From positions 433,204 to 497,203 of the forward strand of contig NZ_BMKD01000005.1 of the NCBI RefSeq assembly GCF_014643835.1: a stretch of 64,000 nt of DNA. The letters are read 5' to 3'. Position 1 is the first letter of the stretch; each line of letters begins with the position of its first letter. Below, piece after piece: positions 22,760 to 38,497 of this stretch. Under the pieces are notes generated by a model. The model had not been told where the DNA came from and ran no database searches. It was given only the letters and a program-made list of their open reading frames with translations. Source of the DNA: Mucilaginibacter rubeus (GTDB lineage: Bacteria > Bacteroidota > Bacteroidia > Sphingobacteriales > Sphingobacteriaceae). The position numbers were made by a program, and so were the translations under genes.

Positions 22760-24253
22760 TTAGTATAAATCTGGTTTTATAACAAACTTTTCCCACGGAC
22801 CAGGGGCTTGTTTCGTGCAATTAATTTTTCCGCCACCGTTTGCCAAAACGGAAGTAACGCCTGTACCGTCCATTCTTAAGTAAGTGCCAGGAAAGGCCAC
22901 TGATTGGATAACATATGTACCATCACTCTGTTTTATTACATTGAATTTTTCATACGGACCAACTGAATTTTGAAGATTTACAATGCCTCCACCCTGAGGG
23001 CCGGTTGGTACACCTGAGCCATCCATTCTTAAGAACAAGCCAGCAAATGCATTTGATTCAATAGTGTAAGTTCCGTCACTTTGTTTTGCAAACAACATTT
23101 TTTCAAAAGGTGCGGCAGTGAACTGACAATTGACAGTACCGCTACCAGAGGTGCTCGAAACGTAATTTGTACCATTTAATCTTAAATACACATTGTAAAA
23201 GGCGTTCGACTTAACGGTTGCCAGCGTATTTGATAAATGAACATGTTTGTTTGCTAAATATTGGTCAATATAGTTTTTAACCGCAGTACTTTTAGCAGGA
23301 TCATCAATAAGATCGGATAACAGAATTATGTTTGTTGCACTGTTACCCAATTGAATAAAAGCAGCATTTTCTCGAGTACAGCTACTTTGCCAGTTTGCTA
23401 TGCTGATTTTTGGAGCTGAATTATCCAGCACAATTTCGCCGAATAGCCCCTTAGTACCATCGCCTCCGACTGTTTCATAATATATTGTTTGATCAAAATT
23501 TGAATTTATCAGCGAATCTTGGTAAGATATATTAGTAGATGCTCCAAAAATTCCAAATAAACCTTTAGCTTCTGCACCTGCTTTTACAGACAAGGCTCTG
23601 TCTTTAATGGTGGTTTGAGAACGATAATATAAACTCAATTTAGCACCTAAAATAATATCTGTTAAAACGTGTGTACCATACTTAGTAACAAGCTGCTGAG
23701 GAGTCATGCTATTCACATCAGATTTAAATACAGGAGTTAAATAAGTTGACTTTATCAGGCTTAATGGAGCATCAAATCTTAGCCGTTTTTGTCTGATTAT
23801 TAATGAGGCGTCTGCATATGAATACTTCGAAGATAAGGAACTGAATTCATGAAACTTTTCACTAACTGTACCACTAAATGCGCCCACTGTTAAGGATGCA
23901 CCAGTAGAATACGAAAGGTTTTGTGAATAATCTTCTGCAGTTGAACCCGAATGAGATTCTGAGTATTGTGTAACATTTAAGTCGGTCACGACCCTGTTTG
24001 ATTCTGCCTGTGCAATTTTTGCAATATCTACAACCTGATAGGTGGTTGAGTTTGAACTTGCATATTCACCGGTCACATCGTAGCCAAAACCCAACAAATC
24101 ATATAGGGGATCACCTGCTGATTGAGTTGTTAGTTTTTTAGGTTTAGTGGATTGATTAAGGCTAAAATCGTTTTTCTTGCAGCTGGTGAAGGTTGAAGTG
24201 ATCGCAATCGCAGAGCAGGTAATTAACAGCTTGAGATTTAGGTTTTTTTTCAT
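22760..24253 (-). CDS. MACPF-domain lipoprotein with C-terminal beta-trefoil
   Basis: 497 aa. The signal peptide ends STFTSC, so the protein is probably a lipoprotein at the cell surface or periplasm. About residues 45-330 form a membrane-attack-complex/perforin domain; its signature is YGTHVLTDIILGAKL, the Y-G-T-H core that is diagnostic. About 350-497 hold three repeats of roughly 48 residues with the pattern YLR(M/L)(D/N)G...PFEKF..(K)QSDGTY, a beta-trefoil likely to bind sugar or another surface ligand. Bacteroidota MACPF proteins such as the BSAPs of Bacteroides kill competing bacteria; others may target eukaryotes. It has its own promoter. The target here is unknown. Confidence 0.85.
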   Translation of the reverse strand: MKKNLNLKLLITCSAIAITSTFTSCKKNDFSLNQSTKPKKLTTQSAGDPLYDLLGFGYDVTGEYASSNSTTYQVVDIAKIAQAESNRVVTDLNVTQYSESHSGSTAEDYSQNLSYSTGASLTVGAFSGTVSEKFHEFSSLSSKYSYADASLIIRQKRLRFDAPLSLIKSTYLTPVFKSDVNSMTPQQLVTKYGTHVLTDIILGAKLSLYYRSQTTIKDRALSVKAGAEAKGLFGIFGASTNISYQDSLINSNFDQTIYYETVGGDGTKGLFGEIVLDNSAPKISIANWQSSCTRENAAFIQLGNSATNIILLSDLIDDPAKSTAVKNYIDQYLANKHVHLSNTLATVKSNAFYNVYLRLNGTNYVSSTSGSGTVNCQFTAAPFEKMLFAKQSDGTYTIESNAFAGLFLRMDGSGVPTGPQGGGIVNLQNSVGPYEKFNVIKQSDGTYVIQSVAFPGTYLRMDGTGVTSVLANGGGKINCTKQAPGPWEKFVIKPDLY

Positions 24254-24621: not shown

Positions 24622-25515
24622 TTATAAATTGAATGTTATTCCCCCAAACACCCTAAAGCCATTTCTATACGCACCGTTCATCTGTGTTTTATCCACCTCG
24701 GCACTGTTGAGGTAAAGTTCATCGGTACCATTACCTGTTTGCCAGTGCAGGGATCCGCCACCAGCCTGAATGGCTATGTGATTTGTGATTGAATACGCCA
24801 ACGCGCCGCTCATATTCAAGCCATACCCGTTAGCATGGTGCCGGTAGCTAACCGGGTGCTGAAAAGTGGTGATGAGGTTCCAGTTGCCCAGGGCATTATA
24901 GCCTACCTGGTTATAGGTGATATCGGCATTAGCCTTCAGCTTTTCAGTGAGTTTTAAAGATGCAATGACTTTAATGAATACGCCTTTCCATTTAGTTTGG
25001 TAGCTGCTGTTCAAGTTCGGAAAGCGGTTACCACTACCATATAAATAAAGGGATTGCCGGTTATCGCTGTATCCTGCGTAAGGTATAAAGCTAAATTGTT
25101 CATTATCAACTAATTTGTAACCTGCACCAAGCGCCCAACCCTGTGTGCTCCCCTTGCCAGCATCAAATGTTTCATTATAGGTATTACCGGTACGGTTATC
25201 GGTGCTATAGTCCGAATCATTTACCGAGCCCGAGGTGATAAACTGCCGGCCGTAATCTGCATAAATGTTAAATCGTTGATATACATTATATTGTAAAGAA
25301 GCAGCAATGCTTTGCCCGCTCAGCTTTGTCCATTTCAGTTCCGAAAAAACATTGGGGCTTTGACCATTGCTATTGCCGGCTATCGACCAGTGAAAATTCT
25401 CTTTCTGATAGCCATCGGTAAGATTAAACTCCAATTTGTTTCTGCCCGATTGGGCATATAATGTACGCAGGCCTATTATTAACCACAGAAAGCAAAAGCC
25501 GGTAAATTTTTTCAT
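24622..25515 (-). CDS. Omptin-like outer-membrane beta-barrel
   Basis: 297 aa from the ATG of MKKFTGF, with a Sec signal peptide ending LYAQ. A reading six codons longer would start inside a hairpin. The protein is made of alternating beta strands and ends NGFRVFGGITFNL with a terminal hydrophobic residue, as outer-membrane barrels do. The stretch SELKWTKLSGQ to SVNDSDYSTDN lines up with the omptin barrel, and N-D-S-D-Y matches the first catalytic Asp pair (D-x-D) at nearly the same place in the precursor (106/108 counted from the longer start). The second pair (Asp-x-His) is not evident: there is W-N-L and later F-Q-H. It may be a diverged protease or a non-catalytic relative. It follows GH16 closely. 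Confidence 0.6.
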   Translation of the reverse strand: MKKFTGFCFLWLIIGLRTLYAQSGRNKLEFNLTDGYQKENFHWSIAGNSNGQSPNVFSELKWTKLSGQSIAASLQYNVYQRFNIYADYGRQFITSGSVNDSDYSTDNRTGNTYNETFDAGKGSTQGWALGAGYKLVDNEQFSFIPYAGYSDNRQSLYLYGSGNRFPNLNSSYQTKWKGVFIKVIASLKLTEKLKANADITYNQVGYNALGNWNLITTFQHPVSYRHHANGYGLNMSGALAYSITNHIAIQAGGGSLHWQTGNGTDELYLNSAEVDKTQMNGAYRNGFRVFGGITFNL

Positions 25516-25563
25516 GGCAGGCTTATATAGCAAGTAAGCCTGCCCTTTTAAAAAGAGCAGGCT
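25516..25563 (-). promoter_or_regulatory. Leader with two mutually exclusive hairpins
   Basis: Read on the minus strand, segment 1 AGCCTGC (25563-25557), segment 2 GGCAGGCTTA (25544-25535) and segment 3 TAAGCCTGCC (25525-25516), directly before the ATG. Segments 2 and 3 pair perfectly over 10 bp; segment 2 can instead pair with segment 1 over 7 bp. Forming 2:3 would bury the translation start. This is the layout of an attenuator or thermosensor; function is inferred. Confidence 0.5.
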
Positions 25564-25580
25564 AAATATATCATTTTAAA

Positions 25581-26813
25581 TTATTGGTTTACGCCAAAAG
25601 CTTCCCAGCCCGATGCCGTTGCACGGTTACAGGTCATAGGTTGCGTACCATTTTCGCTGGAAATAAACTTGCCGTTGTTGCCCCTGAATGTAATTTTACC
25701 ATCGGTGGTAGGCACCCAGTCAAATTTTTCCCAGTCGCCTATAGTAGTACGGTTACAGGTAATGGCTTGTGTACCGTTTTCGCTTGATACGTATTTACCC
25801 ATCGCCTGAAGAGCAACTTTACCGCCCCCGGCATCAACTACAGTAAATTGCTCCCATGCTGATGCAGTAGCACGGTTACAATTCATGGCTTGTGTGCCAT
25901 TTTCGCTGCTAACATATTGGTTATTAAAACCTTTTAAAGTGATAGTTTGACCAATAGGAGGGTTTGTACTGCTGCCCGACAGGTCATAAACCCGTACATA
26001 ATCAACCACCATGTTGCAAGGCAATGCACTATCATTGATCGTGTTCCCCGGCAAATCTCCGCCGATGGCCAGGTTAAGGATAATAAAGAACGGATTATGA
26101 AATGCGCCGGTATTGTTGATATTATTGGCAATATTACCGGTTACATACAGCGTATTGTCCACATACCAGCGAATAGAATTGGTATCCCACTCAACCGCGT
26201 AGGTATGGAAACCTGTTGGCGTTGTGGTGGTACTGCCGCCATATTGTACGTGGCCGCCGTTGTTGTACCAGTGCATAGTGCCCAAGATGGTATTGGAGGT
26301 GTTTACCTGCTCCATAATGTCAATTTCGCCGCATTGCGGCCAGTTTACAGTACCGATGTTTGCGCCCAGCATCCAGAAGGCGGGCCATGTACCTTGTACT
26401 GCCGGCAGCTTAATGCTTGCCTCAATACGACCATAGGTAGGCTGGAATTTACCTGCTGTAGTCAGTTTGGCCGATGTATAAGGCTGGCCTCCAACGGATT
26501 GCTTGCGGGCAGTAATGGTAAGGAAACCGCCTGATACCGTGGCGTTTGCCGACTGGTAATATTCCTTTTCGTTATTAACGCCGGGGTTGCCGTTATCAAT
26601 GTTCCAGTTGGCGGTGTTAACGCTGGTGCCGTTAAATTCGTCGCTCCAAAGCAATGTGCCTGCTCTTGGTGTGGTGCTTGAACTGCCTGTTTTTTCATCG
26701 TTTGTTTTAATGGAAGGTGATGGTCTGTTCAAGTCCTTGCTGCAGGACGAAATTAAAAGCATTAATGCCGATGCAGTAGCGGCACTCTTCGCAAAATTTA
26801 AAAGTTGTTTCAT
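25581..26813 (-). CDS. GH16 beta-glucanase lipoprotein with fascin-like domain
   Basis: 410 aa. Lipoprotein signal with Cys24 (LLISSC). The GH16 domain (about residues 50-275) holds the active-site motif GEIDIMEQ with nucleophile E163, D165 and acid/base E168, and the aromatic-rich WPAFWMLG. This is the laminarinase (endo-beta-1,3-glucanase) branch. The last 122 residues are three repeats of about 41 residues, each with KY(V/I)SSENGTQ-x-M/I-x-CNR...WE-x-F, a fascin-like beta-trefoil expected to bind polysaccharide. The GH30 gene lies 41 nt upstream on the same strand with an almost identical trefoil. The protein is probably surface-anchored and degrades beta-1,3-glucan. Confidence 0.92.
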
Positions 26814-26854
26814 AATGATAGTATTGGTGAATAATTAATTGGTTTTGCAGGTAA

Positions 26855-28732
26855 TTACTGGTTTACACCAAAAGCCTCCCAGCCTGACGCCGTTGCACGG
26901 GTGCAGGTCATGGGTTGTGTACCGTTCTCGCTGGATATAAATTTGCCGTTATTGCCGCGGAGGGTAACCTTGCCATCGGTTGTGGGGATCCAGTCAAATT
27001 TTTCCCAGTCGCCAAAAGTTGTGCGGTTGCAGGTTATGGCCTGTGTCCCGTTTTCTGAGGATACGTATTTATTCATGGCCATCAAGGCTATTTTGCCTCC
27101 ACCGGCATCAACCACGGTAAATTGTTCCCATGCTGAGGCGGTAGACCGGTTGCAATTCATGGCCTGCGTGCCGTTTTCGCTGCTTACGTACAGGTTATTA
27201 AAGCCTTTAAGGGTGATGACTGAACCTATGGGCGGGCCTGATGCTGAACTTTGGGTGCCGGTCCATTTAAAGGTTGCTACAGCGCCGGCGGCTAACGTGT
27301 AAGTAAAAGATTCCGCGCCCCATTTAACTTTAAAGCTTACGCTTGATGAGCCATTATTAAGGGCGATGAGTACTTTGCTGCCGTCAGAATTTTTGAAGGC
27401 CACGTTTTGGATACTGCCCGATAAATTGGAAGAAATCCGCACAGCGCCCGGGCGTACAAACCGCGATGCATGACCGATAATGTAATAACCAACATTTCGG
27501 GTAATAGAAGTACCGCTAACAGTGATACCTCCCAAACAGGTACTGCAGCCGCCCGGTGTATGCGGATTGTTGTTTGGGTCGGAGGCCAGGTTCCATTCCA
27601 AAACATTGCGGCTCCAGTTGCGGGTAGCACCAATAATGAGCGTGTTAACATGCCATGACAGATCGCCGCCAAAATTGCTTGGTGCGCCAACCCATTGCTC
27701 GGTGAAATAAACGTTTTTATTTGGATAGGCGTTGTGTACATCAGTTAGTGAGCTGATATTGCCCGCATACAGGTGAAACGCTGATCCGTCAACATAGGGA
27801 TTGGCGCCGCCATCAGCTAACACGGTTTCGGGATAATCAATCCTGTCGGTGTTGTGGTCATAGGCAATGATCTTGGTTTGAAAGCCTGCCGCCCTGATTT
27901 GCGGGCCGAGGTTGTTTTTAATAAAATTGGCCTGCTCATCCGGCTGCATTACCATACTTGGGTTGTTGTATGGGTTAAGCGGTTCATTTTGAGGGGTAAT
28001 GGCATCAATGGTAATTCCCTGGGCCTGCATGGCCTGCAGGTATTTTACAAAATAGCGGGCATAGGCGTCATAATAACCTGCTGCTGTATTGAGGCTGCCG
28101 CCGGTATAGCCGTTATTGCCGGTGGTGTTTACCTTCATCCAGGTAGGGGCTGTCCATGGGGTAGCTATAATTTTGATAGATGGGTTTATGGCGATGATCT
28201 TTTTCAGGATCGGTAGCAGGTCCTGGTTTTCGGCGCTGATACTGAAGTTGTTCATGTTAAAATCGCCGGCGGTTTGGTTGTAGGTGAAATCGCTTGAGCT
28301 AAGATCGGAGGCACCGATGCTGATCCGGATATAGCTGATCCCGATCTGGCCGTTGGCTGTGCCAAAAAGCTCGTTAAGCACATTGGTTTGGTTGGCGCCA
28401 AGGCCGTTAAGTAGTCCGGCACTGCCCCCGGTTAAAGTAAAGCCGAAACCGTCTATTCCCTGGTAGGTTTGGTTTTCGTCTACTGTAATAGTTGTTGCAT
28501 TAGTACCGGCATCGGCACTAAAATTAAAGCTGGCTTGTGCCTGTAAAAGCTTTGATTGATCGGCAGTAGTAACCCAGGCATTCACTACTTCGTTAGCGGC
28601 CCGTGCTACGGTGCCGCTTGTTTTTTGATTGGGTGCTTCGTTGTTGTTCACATTCTTTTTACAAGAGTAAAAAGCAGCGGTGGAGAGCAGGGTGAGGACT
28701 GCGAACCGCTTTAACTGGTAATTGATTTTCAT
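26855..28732 (-). CDS. GH30 glucanase lipoprotein with fascin-like domain
   Basis: 625 aa. Lipoprotein signal with Cys24 (AAFYSC). The GH30 (beta/alpha)8 barrel plus its side beta domain covers about residues 75-495. The acid/base E250 is in [10 protein letters not shown] and the nucleophile E345 in YFTEQWVG, a spacing normal for the family. Relatives act on beta-1,6-glucan or glucosylceramide; the neighbouring GH16 enzyme makes beta-1,6-glucan side chains of laminarin or fungal wall glucan a sensible target (inference). Residues about 504-625 are a three-repeat fascin-like domain that matches that of the GH16 protein at 110 of 122 positions. It is the first gene of the GH30-GH16-omptin-like group. 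Confidence 0.9.
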
Positions 28733-29301
28733 TGAGTTGTTTATTTAGTTGATTGATATTCAAAAAAATATCACATAAGCCCCTATGCAACAATTCAATA
28801 TTTGTAACAATATTTAACTGTTGCTTAAGAATATCAAAGCATTGGTCAGGGTAAATACGCCCGACCGTTACTGTTTTCCATGAAGCAGGTTTATGCGTAG
28901 CTTAAAATTGGCATTACAAATCTACAGTAATTTAAACGGATCAATCAAGAAAAATGTTCATAATTAATTGATTTATAGTGTATTATGTATAATTTAATAC
29001 GCTTGCATCACAGTGTTAAAGAGGGCAAAAATTAGTTTAAATAGCCTGTGCAACGTTTCTGTTGCGATGAGATTTTTTTTGTGATACGCTTACTTCGCAA
29101 TTAATTTTAAGTAAAAAAGAGAGGGAAGGGTAGCCTCAGACTATATATGCGCGGATATATTTAGATATGAATTAGTCTGCAAACCTTTTAGGACTGTACC
29201 GTTGCTGGTTGAGGTATCATATTAATTTTAACTTTTCCAAAAAGCACAAGTCATCATCTCTCATGCCAGCCGTACGAGACTTGCGTCTCGTTTACGCTCA
29301 C
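28733..29301. other. Intergenic region upstream of the GH30 gene
   Basis: 569 bp, mostly AT-rich, without a convincing gene. It must hold the promoter of the glucanase group; a weak minus-strand match (TTG, then TATTTTTTTG) lies near 28760-28790. Near its right end ACGAGAC-TTGC-GTCTCGT (29273-29290) is a perfect 7-bp hairpin that may end the transglycosylase transcript. Confidence 0.55.
29273..29290. terminator. Short hairpin after the transglycosylase gene
   Basis: ACGAGAC and GTCTCGT form a perfect stem with a 4-nt loop, 12 bp beyond the stop of the minus-strand transglycosylase gene. There is no strong T run, so it could be a repeat element rather than a true terminator. Confidence 0.4.
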
Positions 29302-36595: not shown

Positions 36596-38497
36596 ATGTT
36601 TAAACTTTTACTGAGATTTTTTATCGGTATTATAATGTTTTGCTTATGCTTTTCAACAGGCATAGCTCAAACCACGGTTCAAATAAACGACAAAGTAAAC
36701 CAGCACATTTTTGAATATAAGCAGATAGTATATTTTGAGGATACAACCGGAAAACTCAGCCTCGATGATATTCGCGACGCTTACTTAGCAGGCAAATTCG
36801 CAGTTAACCTGGAACCTACCCCGGTTACCCATCACAACAATTCGGCTTACTGGTACCGCATAAAAATTGGCAAGGCCAATGCCAGCAGCAACAACTGGAT
36901 CCTGGAGTTTTTTGATCAAACTATCGACAGTATTACGGTTTATTCGCCCGTTAAAAATACTTACCGGGCAACGTCGCTTGGCAGTAGCCGCCCTTTTGCC
37001 GCGCGCTTTTACAAACACAAAAACTTTAGCTTTAATATCAACAGCAGCCAGGGGCCCGATGATGTTTATTATATCCGCATCCGTTCGGGGCATTCGGTTA
37101 ACGTGATCATGGTGTTGCGCACCGTAAGCCGCTTTATTGGCTACGCGCTCGATGAATATTTTTTCTTTGGTGTTTTTTACGGCATGATCCTGGTTTTTGG
37201 CCTGTACAATTTCATGATGTTCATAGCCATGCGCCAGGTGCAATACCTGTATTACATCATATATAACTTAAGTATTGGCCTTTATGAAATGTGTGCCGAT
37301 GGCATAGCTTACCAGTACATCTGGCCAAACTATCCCGGCTGGAACAATTATGCGTATGGTATCGCCCTGTTCTCGGCCAGTATTTTTGCCATCCTTTTTG
37401 CTCAAAGCCTGCTCAATTTAAAAGTTAATGCCCCGCGTTTAAATAAAGTGATCAAGTGGGTGATCATTTTCAGGTGCATTTATTTCCTGGTTTGCATTAC
37501 CATTAATTTGGCCTGGTTTAACTACAAGATCATCGAGTTTTTGCCGCTGTGCATTTCTTTTTATGCGGGTTGTTATGTGCTGGTAAAAGGGTATAAACCC
37601 GCGCGGTTCTTTGTTATTGGGTACACTTTTTTACTTACCGGCTTTGTTATTAAAAGCTGTATAGCACTAAATGTCTGGTGGCTGCCTGTTACCGAGTTTG
37701 ATTACTACAGCCTTAGTATTTGTTTTATTATGGAGATGCTGTTCATCTCTTTTGCTATAGGGGATAAAGTGCGGATCCTTAAAAAAGAAAAGGACGTTGC
37801 CCAGCAGGATATTATAGCCCAGATGAAGCAAAACGAAGAGCTGAAAGATACCCTGAACCGCAGCCTTGAAGCCCAGGTGCAGGAACGCACCCGCGAGCTG
37901 GTTGAAAAGTCATCAATGATAGCGGAACAAAATGAGGAGCTAAAATCAGTTAATGAGCTGCTGCAGCAACAGGCCGAAGAGATCTCGCGCATGAATGTAC
38001 TCCTCGAAAAAGACAACATTATCCTGCATAATGATATTGAAAAAGTAACACACGATAGGGTAATGCTCACCGAAGTTGACTTTGAAGAGTTTAGCCGCAT
38101 TTATCCCGACAGGGAAACCTGCTTCAAATTCCTGTCTGATCTGAAATGGGAGCATAGTTATGCCTGCCGCAAATGCAGCAATACACATTACGGCAGCGGG
38201 CACCTCCCTTACAGCCGCCGGTGTTCAAAATGTGGCTATGAGGAGTCGGTAATAGCTTATACCATACTGCAAAATACCCGGATCCCTATCAATAAAGCTT
38301 TTTATATGATCTTCCTGATGTATTCAACCAAGGGTAAGATCTCATCACATAAACTTTCCGAAATTCTTTCTATCCGTCAAAGCACTTGCTGGGCTTACAG
38401 CTCGCGCATAAAAAAAGTAATGGAGCAGCGTAAAAAAGAGATCAAAAACGCGGGAAATAAAGGGTGGAGTAAATTAGTGATCGACACGAATGCTTAA
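36596..38497 (+). CDS. 7TMR-DISM receptor fused to an IS1595-transposase-type zinc ribbon
   Basis: 633 aa. Signal peptide (about 1-25), extracytoplasmic 7TMR-DISMED2-like sensor (about 28-175), seven-helix 7TMR-DISM membrane domain (about 185-395), and a coiled coil (about 398-490). Where a histidine kinase or cyclase is usual, the protein continues with VDFEEFSRIYPDRETCFKFL and a zinc ribbon, CRKC (524-527) and CSKC (543-546), then a helical stretch through about residue 605. This order is that of the N-terminus of IS1595-family transposases; the DDE catalytic domain is absent. The likely output is therefore DNA binding tied directly to a membrane receptor. A domesticated transposase domain is my inference. 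Flanked by modA (divergent) and a nitroreductase gene. Confidence 0.82.
   Translation: MFKLLLRFFIGIIMFCLCFSTGIAQTTVQINDKVNQHIFEYKQIVYFEDTTGKLSLDDIRDAYLAGKFAVNLEPTPVTHHNNSAYWYRIKIGKANASSNNWILEFFDQTIDSITVYSPVKNTYRATSLGSSRPFAARFYKHKNFSFNINSSQGPDDVYYIRIRSGHSVNVIMVLRTVSRFIGYALDEYFFFGVFYGMILVFGLYNFMMFIAMRQVQYLYYIIYNLSIGLYEMCADGIAYQYIWPNYPGWNNYAYGIALFSASIFAILFAQSLLNLKVNAPRLNKVIKWVIIFRCIYFLVCITINLAWFNYKIIEFLPLCISFYAGCYVLVKGYKPARFFVIGYTFLLTGFVIKSCIALNVWWLPVTEFDYYSLSICFIMEMLFISFAIGDKVRILKKEKDVAQQDIIAQMKQNEELKDTLNRSLEAQVQERTRELVEKSSMIAEQNEELKSVNELLQQQAEEISRMNVLLEKDNIILHNDIEKVTHDRVMLTEVDFEEFSRIYPDRETCFKFLSDLKWEHSYACRKCSNTHYGSGHLPYSRRCSKCGYEESVIAYTILQNTRIPINKAFYMIFLMYSTKGKISSHKLSEILSIRQSTCWAYSSRIKKVMEQRKKEIKNAGNKGWSKLVIDTNA

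Follow-up and report, generated by a model that had tools for sequence, protein, structure and literature searches.

A 7TMR-DISM receptor ending in an IS1595 transposase-type module as a probable regulator of polysaccharide utilization genes in Bacteroidota

We analyzed a 64,000-nt stretch of Mucilaginibacter rubeus DNA (hereafter the window) and found an ORF of 633 aa with an ATG start (36596-38497, forward strand), in which a 7TMR-DISM sensor is joined to a predicted IS1595 DNA-binding module. The encoded receptor is probably a membrane-anchored one-component direct activator of polysaccharide utilization genes, with both its DNA binding and its ligand predicted from indirect evidence. It also seems likely, if somewhat less firmly so, that a single ancient capture of a transposase module gave rise to a new Bacteroidota class of such membrane one-component activators regulating polysaccharide utilization (in soil Mucilaginibacter, fungal cell-wall GH30, GH16, and GH18 genes), that these receptors, from their place in the membrane, bridge two sites separated by about 90 bp, and that receptor and operator evolved together, paralogues within a genome recognizing distinct site classes. 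A preliminary description of the window had taken the protein for a one-component regulator in the membrane whose DNA-binding domain was domesticated from a transposon, and the sequence comparisons support this proposal, with DNA binding as its predicted part. That description mentioned neither the helix-turn-helix behind the ribbon nor the target genes or candidate DNA sites; the likely function, the likely DNA sites, and the single origin go beyond it, and we regard these additions as likely.

Domain composition of the receptor

Pfam assigns aa 42-174 (36719-37117, forward strand) to the periplasmic sensor 7TMR-DISMED2 (PF07696; E 5.6e-28, 98 bits against a cut-off of 22) and aa 187-391 (37154-37768, forward strand) to the seven-helix membrane domain 7TMR-DISM_7TM (PF07695; E 2.3e-44, 152.2 bits against a cut-off of 29), and all 38 homologues contain a DISMED domain and PF07695. 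The modeled sensor is similar to 3jyb, the periplasmic domain of RetS (TM 0.82, normalized by target length), and the full-length model matches RetS in the sensor only. The sensor and helices are followed by a long helix, probably a coiled coil, at aa 392-495 (37769-38080, forward strand), where the model shows a helix at aa 367-491, partly with low confidence. This is the point where 7TMR-DISM paralogues run on into a histidine kinase. Twenty same-genus paralogues share the sensor, helices, and coil with the receptor at 21-28% identity, but they end in a kinase: the kinase H-box is present in 20/20 and the zinc ribbon in 0/20. Pfam and NCBIfam scans found no DDE, kinase, or cyclase domain in the receptor ORF, and the output of this receptor is the IS1595 module rather than a kinase or cyclase.

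The module is predicted at aa 496-617 (38081-38446, forward strand) from profiles, BLASTP, and a structural model. The IS1595 zinc ribbon profile PF12760 matches aa 506-548 with E 0.004 and 17.5 bits, and the last 154 aa alone with E 9.1e-4 and 19.6 bits, both below the Pfam cut-off of 25.4; it is found in 38/38 homologues at E<=0.01 and exceeds the Pfam cut-off in four of the seven distant homologues scanned. The NCBIfam IS1595 transposase profile NF033547 matches aa 560-617 over profile positions 1-59 of 215 (E 1.5e-7), with a score below the curated cut-off of 75 bits. BLASTP gave gapless alignments to two IS1595 transposases, L125 (46/117 identical, 39%; E 1e-34) and L144 (45/120 identical; E 1e-32), both of which carry the DDE domain PF12762 in Pfam, while the receptor is devoid of PF12762 and stops where the transposase DDE domain begins in the alignment. 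The zinc ribbon with its two CxxC pairs (CRKC...CSKC, aa 524-546; 38165-38233, forward strand; Pfam and alignment) is identified by homology and recurs in all 38 homologues. A model of aa 483-633 built from the 38 homologues (pLDDT 85.3, pTM 0.79) has helices at 496-502 and 506-517, strands at the ribbon, and helices at 565-577, 584-591, and 595-611, and the module is therefore read as a zinc ribbon plus a helix-turn-helix, the latter at aa 584-611 (38345-38428, forward strand; model helices 584-591 and 595-611, and NCBIfam). Among solved structures the module has no sequence relatives, and a Foldseek search with its model returned nothing at E<=0.001 (best E 0.74) and weak zinc-ribbon and winged-helix matches only. 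At the level of sequence, the receptor C-terminus is thus confirmed as the N-terminal module of an IS1595-family transposase.

These results bear out the preliminary description, which had recognized a 7TMR-DISM receptor (PF07696 and PF07695 both score above their cut-offs) continuing into an IS1595 N-terminus (NF033547 match; gapless alignments to the genuine transposases L125 and L144), with neither a DDE domain nor a kinase or cyclase output. It had placed the ribbon cysteines correctly at CRKC 524-527 and CSKC 543-546. Of the checks it had suggested, the profile search recovered the IS1595 homology, the fusion proved to be conserved with cysteines intact across many genomes, and structure prediction gave a module of good confidence with no significant solved-structure match. 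Neither of the contrary outcomes it had named, the lack of any IS1595 match or a fusion limited to one genome with decayed cysteines in relatives, was observed.

Gene neighborhood and candidate operator

SusC plus SusD, or GH16, GH30, GH5, or GH3 glycoside hydrolases, are encoded in the fetched flanks of 76 of 79 receptor loci versus 1 of 20 kinase-paralogue loci, a comparison in which related loci were each counted and the reference proteins for neighbor recognition were taken from receptor loci, so that the GH-family counts favor the latter. At 33 of 78 named loci (L083 and L055 dropped), same-strand SusC and SusD genes occupy positions +1 and +2. Of 18 further loci picked across other families and paralogues, 15 have a same-strand SusC gene at +1 to +3, and the three exceptions are the f12 loci, with a secreted protein adjoining and GH16 in the flanks. 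Pfam verified examples of SusC, SusD, GH30, GH16, GH5, GH3, and alginate lyase neighbors, and the linkage to susC/susD or glycoside hydrolase genes by which regulators of polysaccharide utilization loci (PULs) are recognized is present. In the f12 loci (L154, L155, and L156) the receptor is flanked by a secreted-looking ORF of 1670-1800 aa on one side and a protein of 291-301 aa on the other, and a Por secretion tail was found in L154, the single f12 locus scanned.

In the window, the receptor has molybdate-transport-like genes on one side and a nitroreductase-like gene on the other. The proposed target operon lies about 8 kb off at 24622-28732 on the reverse strand and comprises a GH30 glycoside hydrolase (26855-28732; Pfam), a GH16 glycoside hydrolase (25581-26813; Pfam and neighbor comparison), and an outer-membrane-protein-like ORF (PF17251 Pom; 24622-25533; Pfam and neighbor comparison). 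The same group is found directly 3' of the receptor in L032 and L033, where GH30 is receptor-adjacent; relative to these two loci it is rearranged to a place about 8 kb away on the other strand in the window, and apparently also in G001. Adjoining the GH30-GH16 group is a gene for a MACPF (perforin-like) protein with a repetitive C-terminus (22760-24253, reverse strand). A C-terminal DUF7910/fascin-like domain is common to the GH30 and GH16 of the window and to the GH18 proteins of L177, L178, and L179, and is perhaps a common glycan-binding part.

Alignment of receptor-SusC intergenic regions revealed a site in two copies, which in Pedobacter reads GGTA-N4-AAGCGTATCA; the Chitinophaga and Dyadobacter site is close to it, and the Mucilaginibacter site has TGYGA as its left half. 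The strict pair pattern was defined as two cores A-N-S-CGTAT-Y-R on the same strand, 86-93 bp apart. Direct repeats of the core AAGCGTATCA with this spacing on one strand are present in 58 of 78 loci, in every case with the next gene of that strand starting less than 500 bp further on, and the remaining 20 receptor loci have no pair within the fetched flanks. Opposite-strand pairs at 86-93 bp occur in 0/78 loci, each of 20 rounds of dinucleotide shuffling left 0 loci with a pair, and no pair was found at the 20 kinase-paralogue loci. The window contains exactly one strict pair (28995-29091, reverse strand; 0 in 100 shuffles), 263 bp before the GH30 start. Its candidate operator copies, found by repeat search, are the distal TGCGAAGTAAGCGTATCA (29082-29099, reverse strand) and, 87 bp from it, the proximal TGTGATGCAAGCGTATTA (28995-29012, reverse strand). 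The sole strict pair of the nearest compared genome, G001, is also 8 kb from the receptor. Between the two copies in the window is an inverted repeat, GCAAC-N5-GTTGC (within 29010-29090, reverse strand), in place of which 16 of 59 sequences have a CTG..ATCA[G/A] palindrome; this element is possibly a third site or a bend.

A promoter-like sequence, TTG-N21-TAGATTTG (28917-28948, reverse strand), includes the motif TAnnTTTR, which we take to be the Bacteroidota -7 type promoter element and which starts 70 bp after the proximal copy. Across the 58 pair loci and the window (n = 59), the distance from the second copy to the start of TAnnTTTR is 70-71 bp in 40 cases, 81-83 bp in 15, and 60 bp in a single case, and 3 lack the motif at these positions; the 70-bp distance of the window is thus the commonest among its relatives. 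Successive distances lie roughly one helical turn from each other, the pattern expected of an activator bound upstream. The repeat spacing itself, at 86-93 bp, does not correspond to an integral number of helical turns.

A genome-wide search of 100 relatives located the strict pair in 25 of them, at 31 places, and a control pattern at 1 place. It is present in 23/39 receptor genomes versus 2/61 receptor-less ones (Fisher 3e-10; within the genus 5e-5; relatedness uncorrected), and the latter two are G010 (58% complete; pair before GH30) and G045 (pair inside a gene). Thirteen of the 31 places were inspected: 11 precede GH30 (4), GH18 (3), SusC (2), GH3 (1), and alginate-lyase-family (1) genes, and 2 are inside genes. 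The targets in L177-L179 had been taken for GH16 on a BLAST match of 126-139 aa, an assignment ruled out by Pfam, which identifies GH18. In family f36 the strict pair is found in 3 of 117 genomes (2 with the receptor; G457 without), and under looser matching 6/6 f36 receptor loci have a pair 88-91 bp apart. Downstream of f12 and f15 receptors the repeat was not found, and no more than one similar site is seen in f49; therefore, receptor and repeat do not always occur together. The f15 loci L159, L161, and L164 share another motif 3' of the receptor, GCAA[A/T]CGATTTCGGA or close to it, which is possibly the f15 operator, and the f49 loci L158 and L160 have a single GTGTG-N3or4-AAGCGTATA-like site 3' of the receptor. 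Near the ends of related IS elements, 5 near-matches to the site were found versus 4.8 expected (11 transposase loci), and an inverted-repeat search gave no clear IS ends in most of 16 loci; a derivation of the operator from the transposon's own ends is unsupported by these sequences.

Comparison with known regulators

Known membrane regulators of PULs are mainly SusR-like proteins, HTCS, and sigma/anti-sigma systems. As described in excerpts of PMC3878776, the SusR-like regulators of Bacteroides resemble the present receptor in being Bacteroidota-specific, in periplasmic sensing, in having a C-terminal DNA-binding part, and in lying beside susC/susD. Their predicted operators are, in the same excerpts, direct repeats with an unusually long spacing of 67 or 77 bp between centers, compared with 86-93 bp here, and HTCS motifs are direct repeats as well. 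The SusR DNA-binding domain is stated there to have no significant similarity to known ones (PMC3878776), whereas our receptor has an IS1595 transposase module on 7TMR-DISM, and its likeness to SusR is one of role only. HTCS are likewise inner-membrane PUL regulators with a periplasmic sensor and a C-terminal DNA-binding domain, but they signal by a histidine kinase and a receiver to an AraC domain, and Pfam and NCBIfam found none of these parts in the receptor ORF. Proteins with the ChiS-family DNA-binding domain include a 7TMR-DISM architecture, and ChiS responds to chitin; unlike the receptor, this family is proteobacterial, and its domain is helix-sheet-helix rather than a transposase zinc ribbon-helix-turn-helix (PMC8092284, in excerpt). 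IS1595 transposases (PF12760 plus PF12762; NF033547) have an N-terminal zinc ribbon-helix-turn-helix homologous to that of the receptor at 38-39% identity. The receptor differs from them in the absence of a DDE domain, in the fusion of this part to a receptor, and in its conserved place beside polysaccharide genes.

The preliminary description knew of no characterised example, and our search of open-licence PubMed Central papers, a collection in which subscription papers are mostly not included, yielded no description either: no paper joined 7TMR-DISM with transposase and zinc ribbon, none joined 7TMR-DISM with polysaccharide utilization or Bacteroidetes, and none mentioned PF12760. A Chitinophaga pinensis locus for the fungal cell wall is known (PMC10449523), and the available excerpts of PMC10449523, PMC11497827, and PMC5342196 contain nothing on the receptor protein. 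Very probably, the role of the receptor is an already known, SusR-like one, and its make-up from different parts is new. If this reading is true, it adds a regulator class for PULs and offers a clear example from bacteria of a membrane receptor that carries the DNA-binding domain of a transposase, in which the sister kinases reveal what was replaced. It would also provide a readable operator for regulon prediction in many soil Bacteroidota and a possible fungal cell wall sensor.

Proposed mode of action, alternatives, and origin

We propose that the periplasmic sensor would detect an oligosaccharide released from a polysaccharide, in this clade probably fungal cell-wall beta-glucan; GH18, GH16, and GH30 together point to the fungal cell wall. 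By analogy with other 7TMR-DISM proteins, the signal would pass via the seven helices and the coiled coil to the C-terminal zinc ribbon and helix-turn-helix, a former part of an IS1595 transposase, and alter it. The module may then bind two AAGCGTATCA-type sites 86-93 bp apart, which lie upstream of, and in helical phase with, a Bacteroidota-type promoter, and the bound receptor would switch on SusC/SusD or GH30-GH16 operons, including loci far from the receptor gene.

Such distant loci could also be reached if the output module were freed from the membrane by proteolysis and acted as a soluble factor, an alternative that we consider unlikely. Pair places are found on another contig than the receptor in G021 and 1.15 Mb from it in G027, and membrane-tethered regulators of this kind are known generally, but the long coil is conserved over its length, and SusR-type tethered regulators are thought to work from the membrane. 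Mean identity to the window protein among 31 aligned sequences is 0.59 for the sensor, 0.77 for the seven helices, 0.78 for the coil, 0.87 for the zinc ribbon, and 0.92 for the helix-turn-helix part.

The DNA-binding part is thus the most conserved region of the receptor, which speaks against a second, quite improbable alternative, that the zinc ribbon-helix-turn-helix is a protein-binding or dimerization module and that another regulator acts on the repeat. This alternative is favored by the receptors of f12 and f15, which lack the repeat. A two-component pair could also be the regulator at 11 Pedobacter loci (L084, L085, L086, L090, L094, L095, L100, L101, L102, L104, and L109), where a response regulator (225 aa at L084) and a 434-aa HK-like protein are encoded directly upstream of the receptor. 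However, neighbor clustering showed no other regulator family recurring beside most loci, the pair is largely restricted to receptor genomes, and the repeat type follows the clade of the receptor DNA-binding domain. On a phylogeny of 60 DNA-binding modules, sites with a GGT left half and those with a TGY left half are separated by a single change, and so are spacings of 86-89 bp and those of 90-93 bp; the dividing branch has a support of 87 (SH-aLRT only), and in 5 of the 60 rows one site belongs to neither class and the label was taken from the other site. The Mucilaginibacter paralogues L075, L092, L110, L166, and L167 cluster with receptors of Pedobacter, Chitinophaga, and Dyadobacter and have sites of the GGT class, carrying the site class of their receptor clade and not of their genus, and G053 and G046 each contain both an orthologue of the window receptor (TGY) and a GGT-type paralogue. 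The site class tracks the receptor clade even among same-genus paralogues, which makes the receptor itself the favored candidate for reading the site.

A further reading, in which a receptor and an IS fragment are joined in frame by chance or in decay and serve no function, might draw on the missing catalytic domain; it is rejected because the fusion is conserved: it is intact in 79 of 80 named loci in six genera, retains six cysteines in 31/31 sequences, has a very low dN/dS, and forms one clade. The 80 named loci were kept from 195 relatives found in named genomes; the 79 ORFs are 624-671 aa long with CxxC-x15-CxxC, and L055 is truncated by a contig end. They are from Mucilaginibacter, Pedobacter, Arcticibacter, Desertivirga, Dyadobacter, and Chitinophaga, plus some Bacteroidetes bins. 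Matches were found in 70 of 100 relatives searched, many of them the receptor half alone or transposases, and by reading of the match list receptor plus module is present in 39 (38 of the genus and G075), including G058, split over two contigs, and G051, with two overlapping matches in one frame. Across the class, 395 genomes were searched with up to 10 candidates scored per genome, and 16 of them, in five families, have a match within a reading frame at least about 600 aa long; all seven proteins scanned from this set contain PF07696, PF07695, and PF12760. The conserved cysteines are C509, C524, C527, C543, C546, and C598. The module dN/dS is 0.004 (L002) and 0.008 (L005) versus 0.054 and 0.060 for the sensor, from the two usable close pairs, synonymous sites being near saturation in most others. 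When 31 receptors were placed in one tree with 15 transposases, a branch with support 98/95 had the receptors on one side, under midpoint rooting only and with some long transposase branches. Many IS1595-type transposases or fragments are present in G400 (10 matches), G001, and G018, and several short frames of G001 and G018 lie at contig ends.
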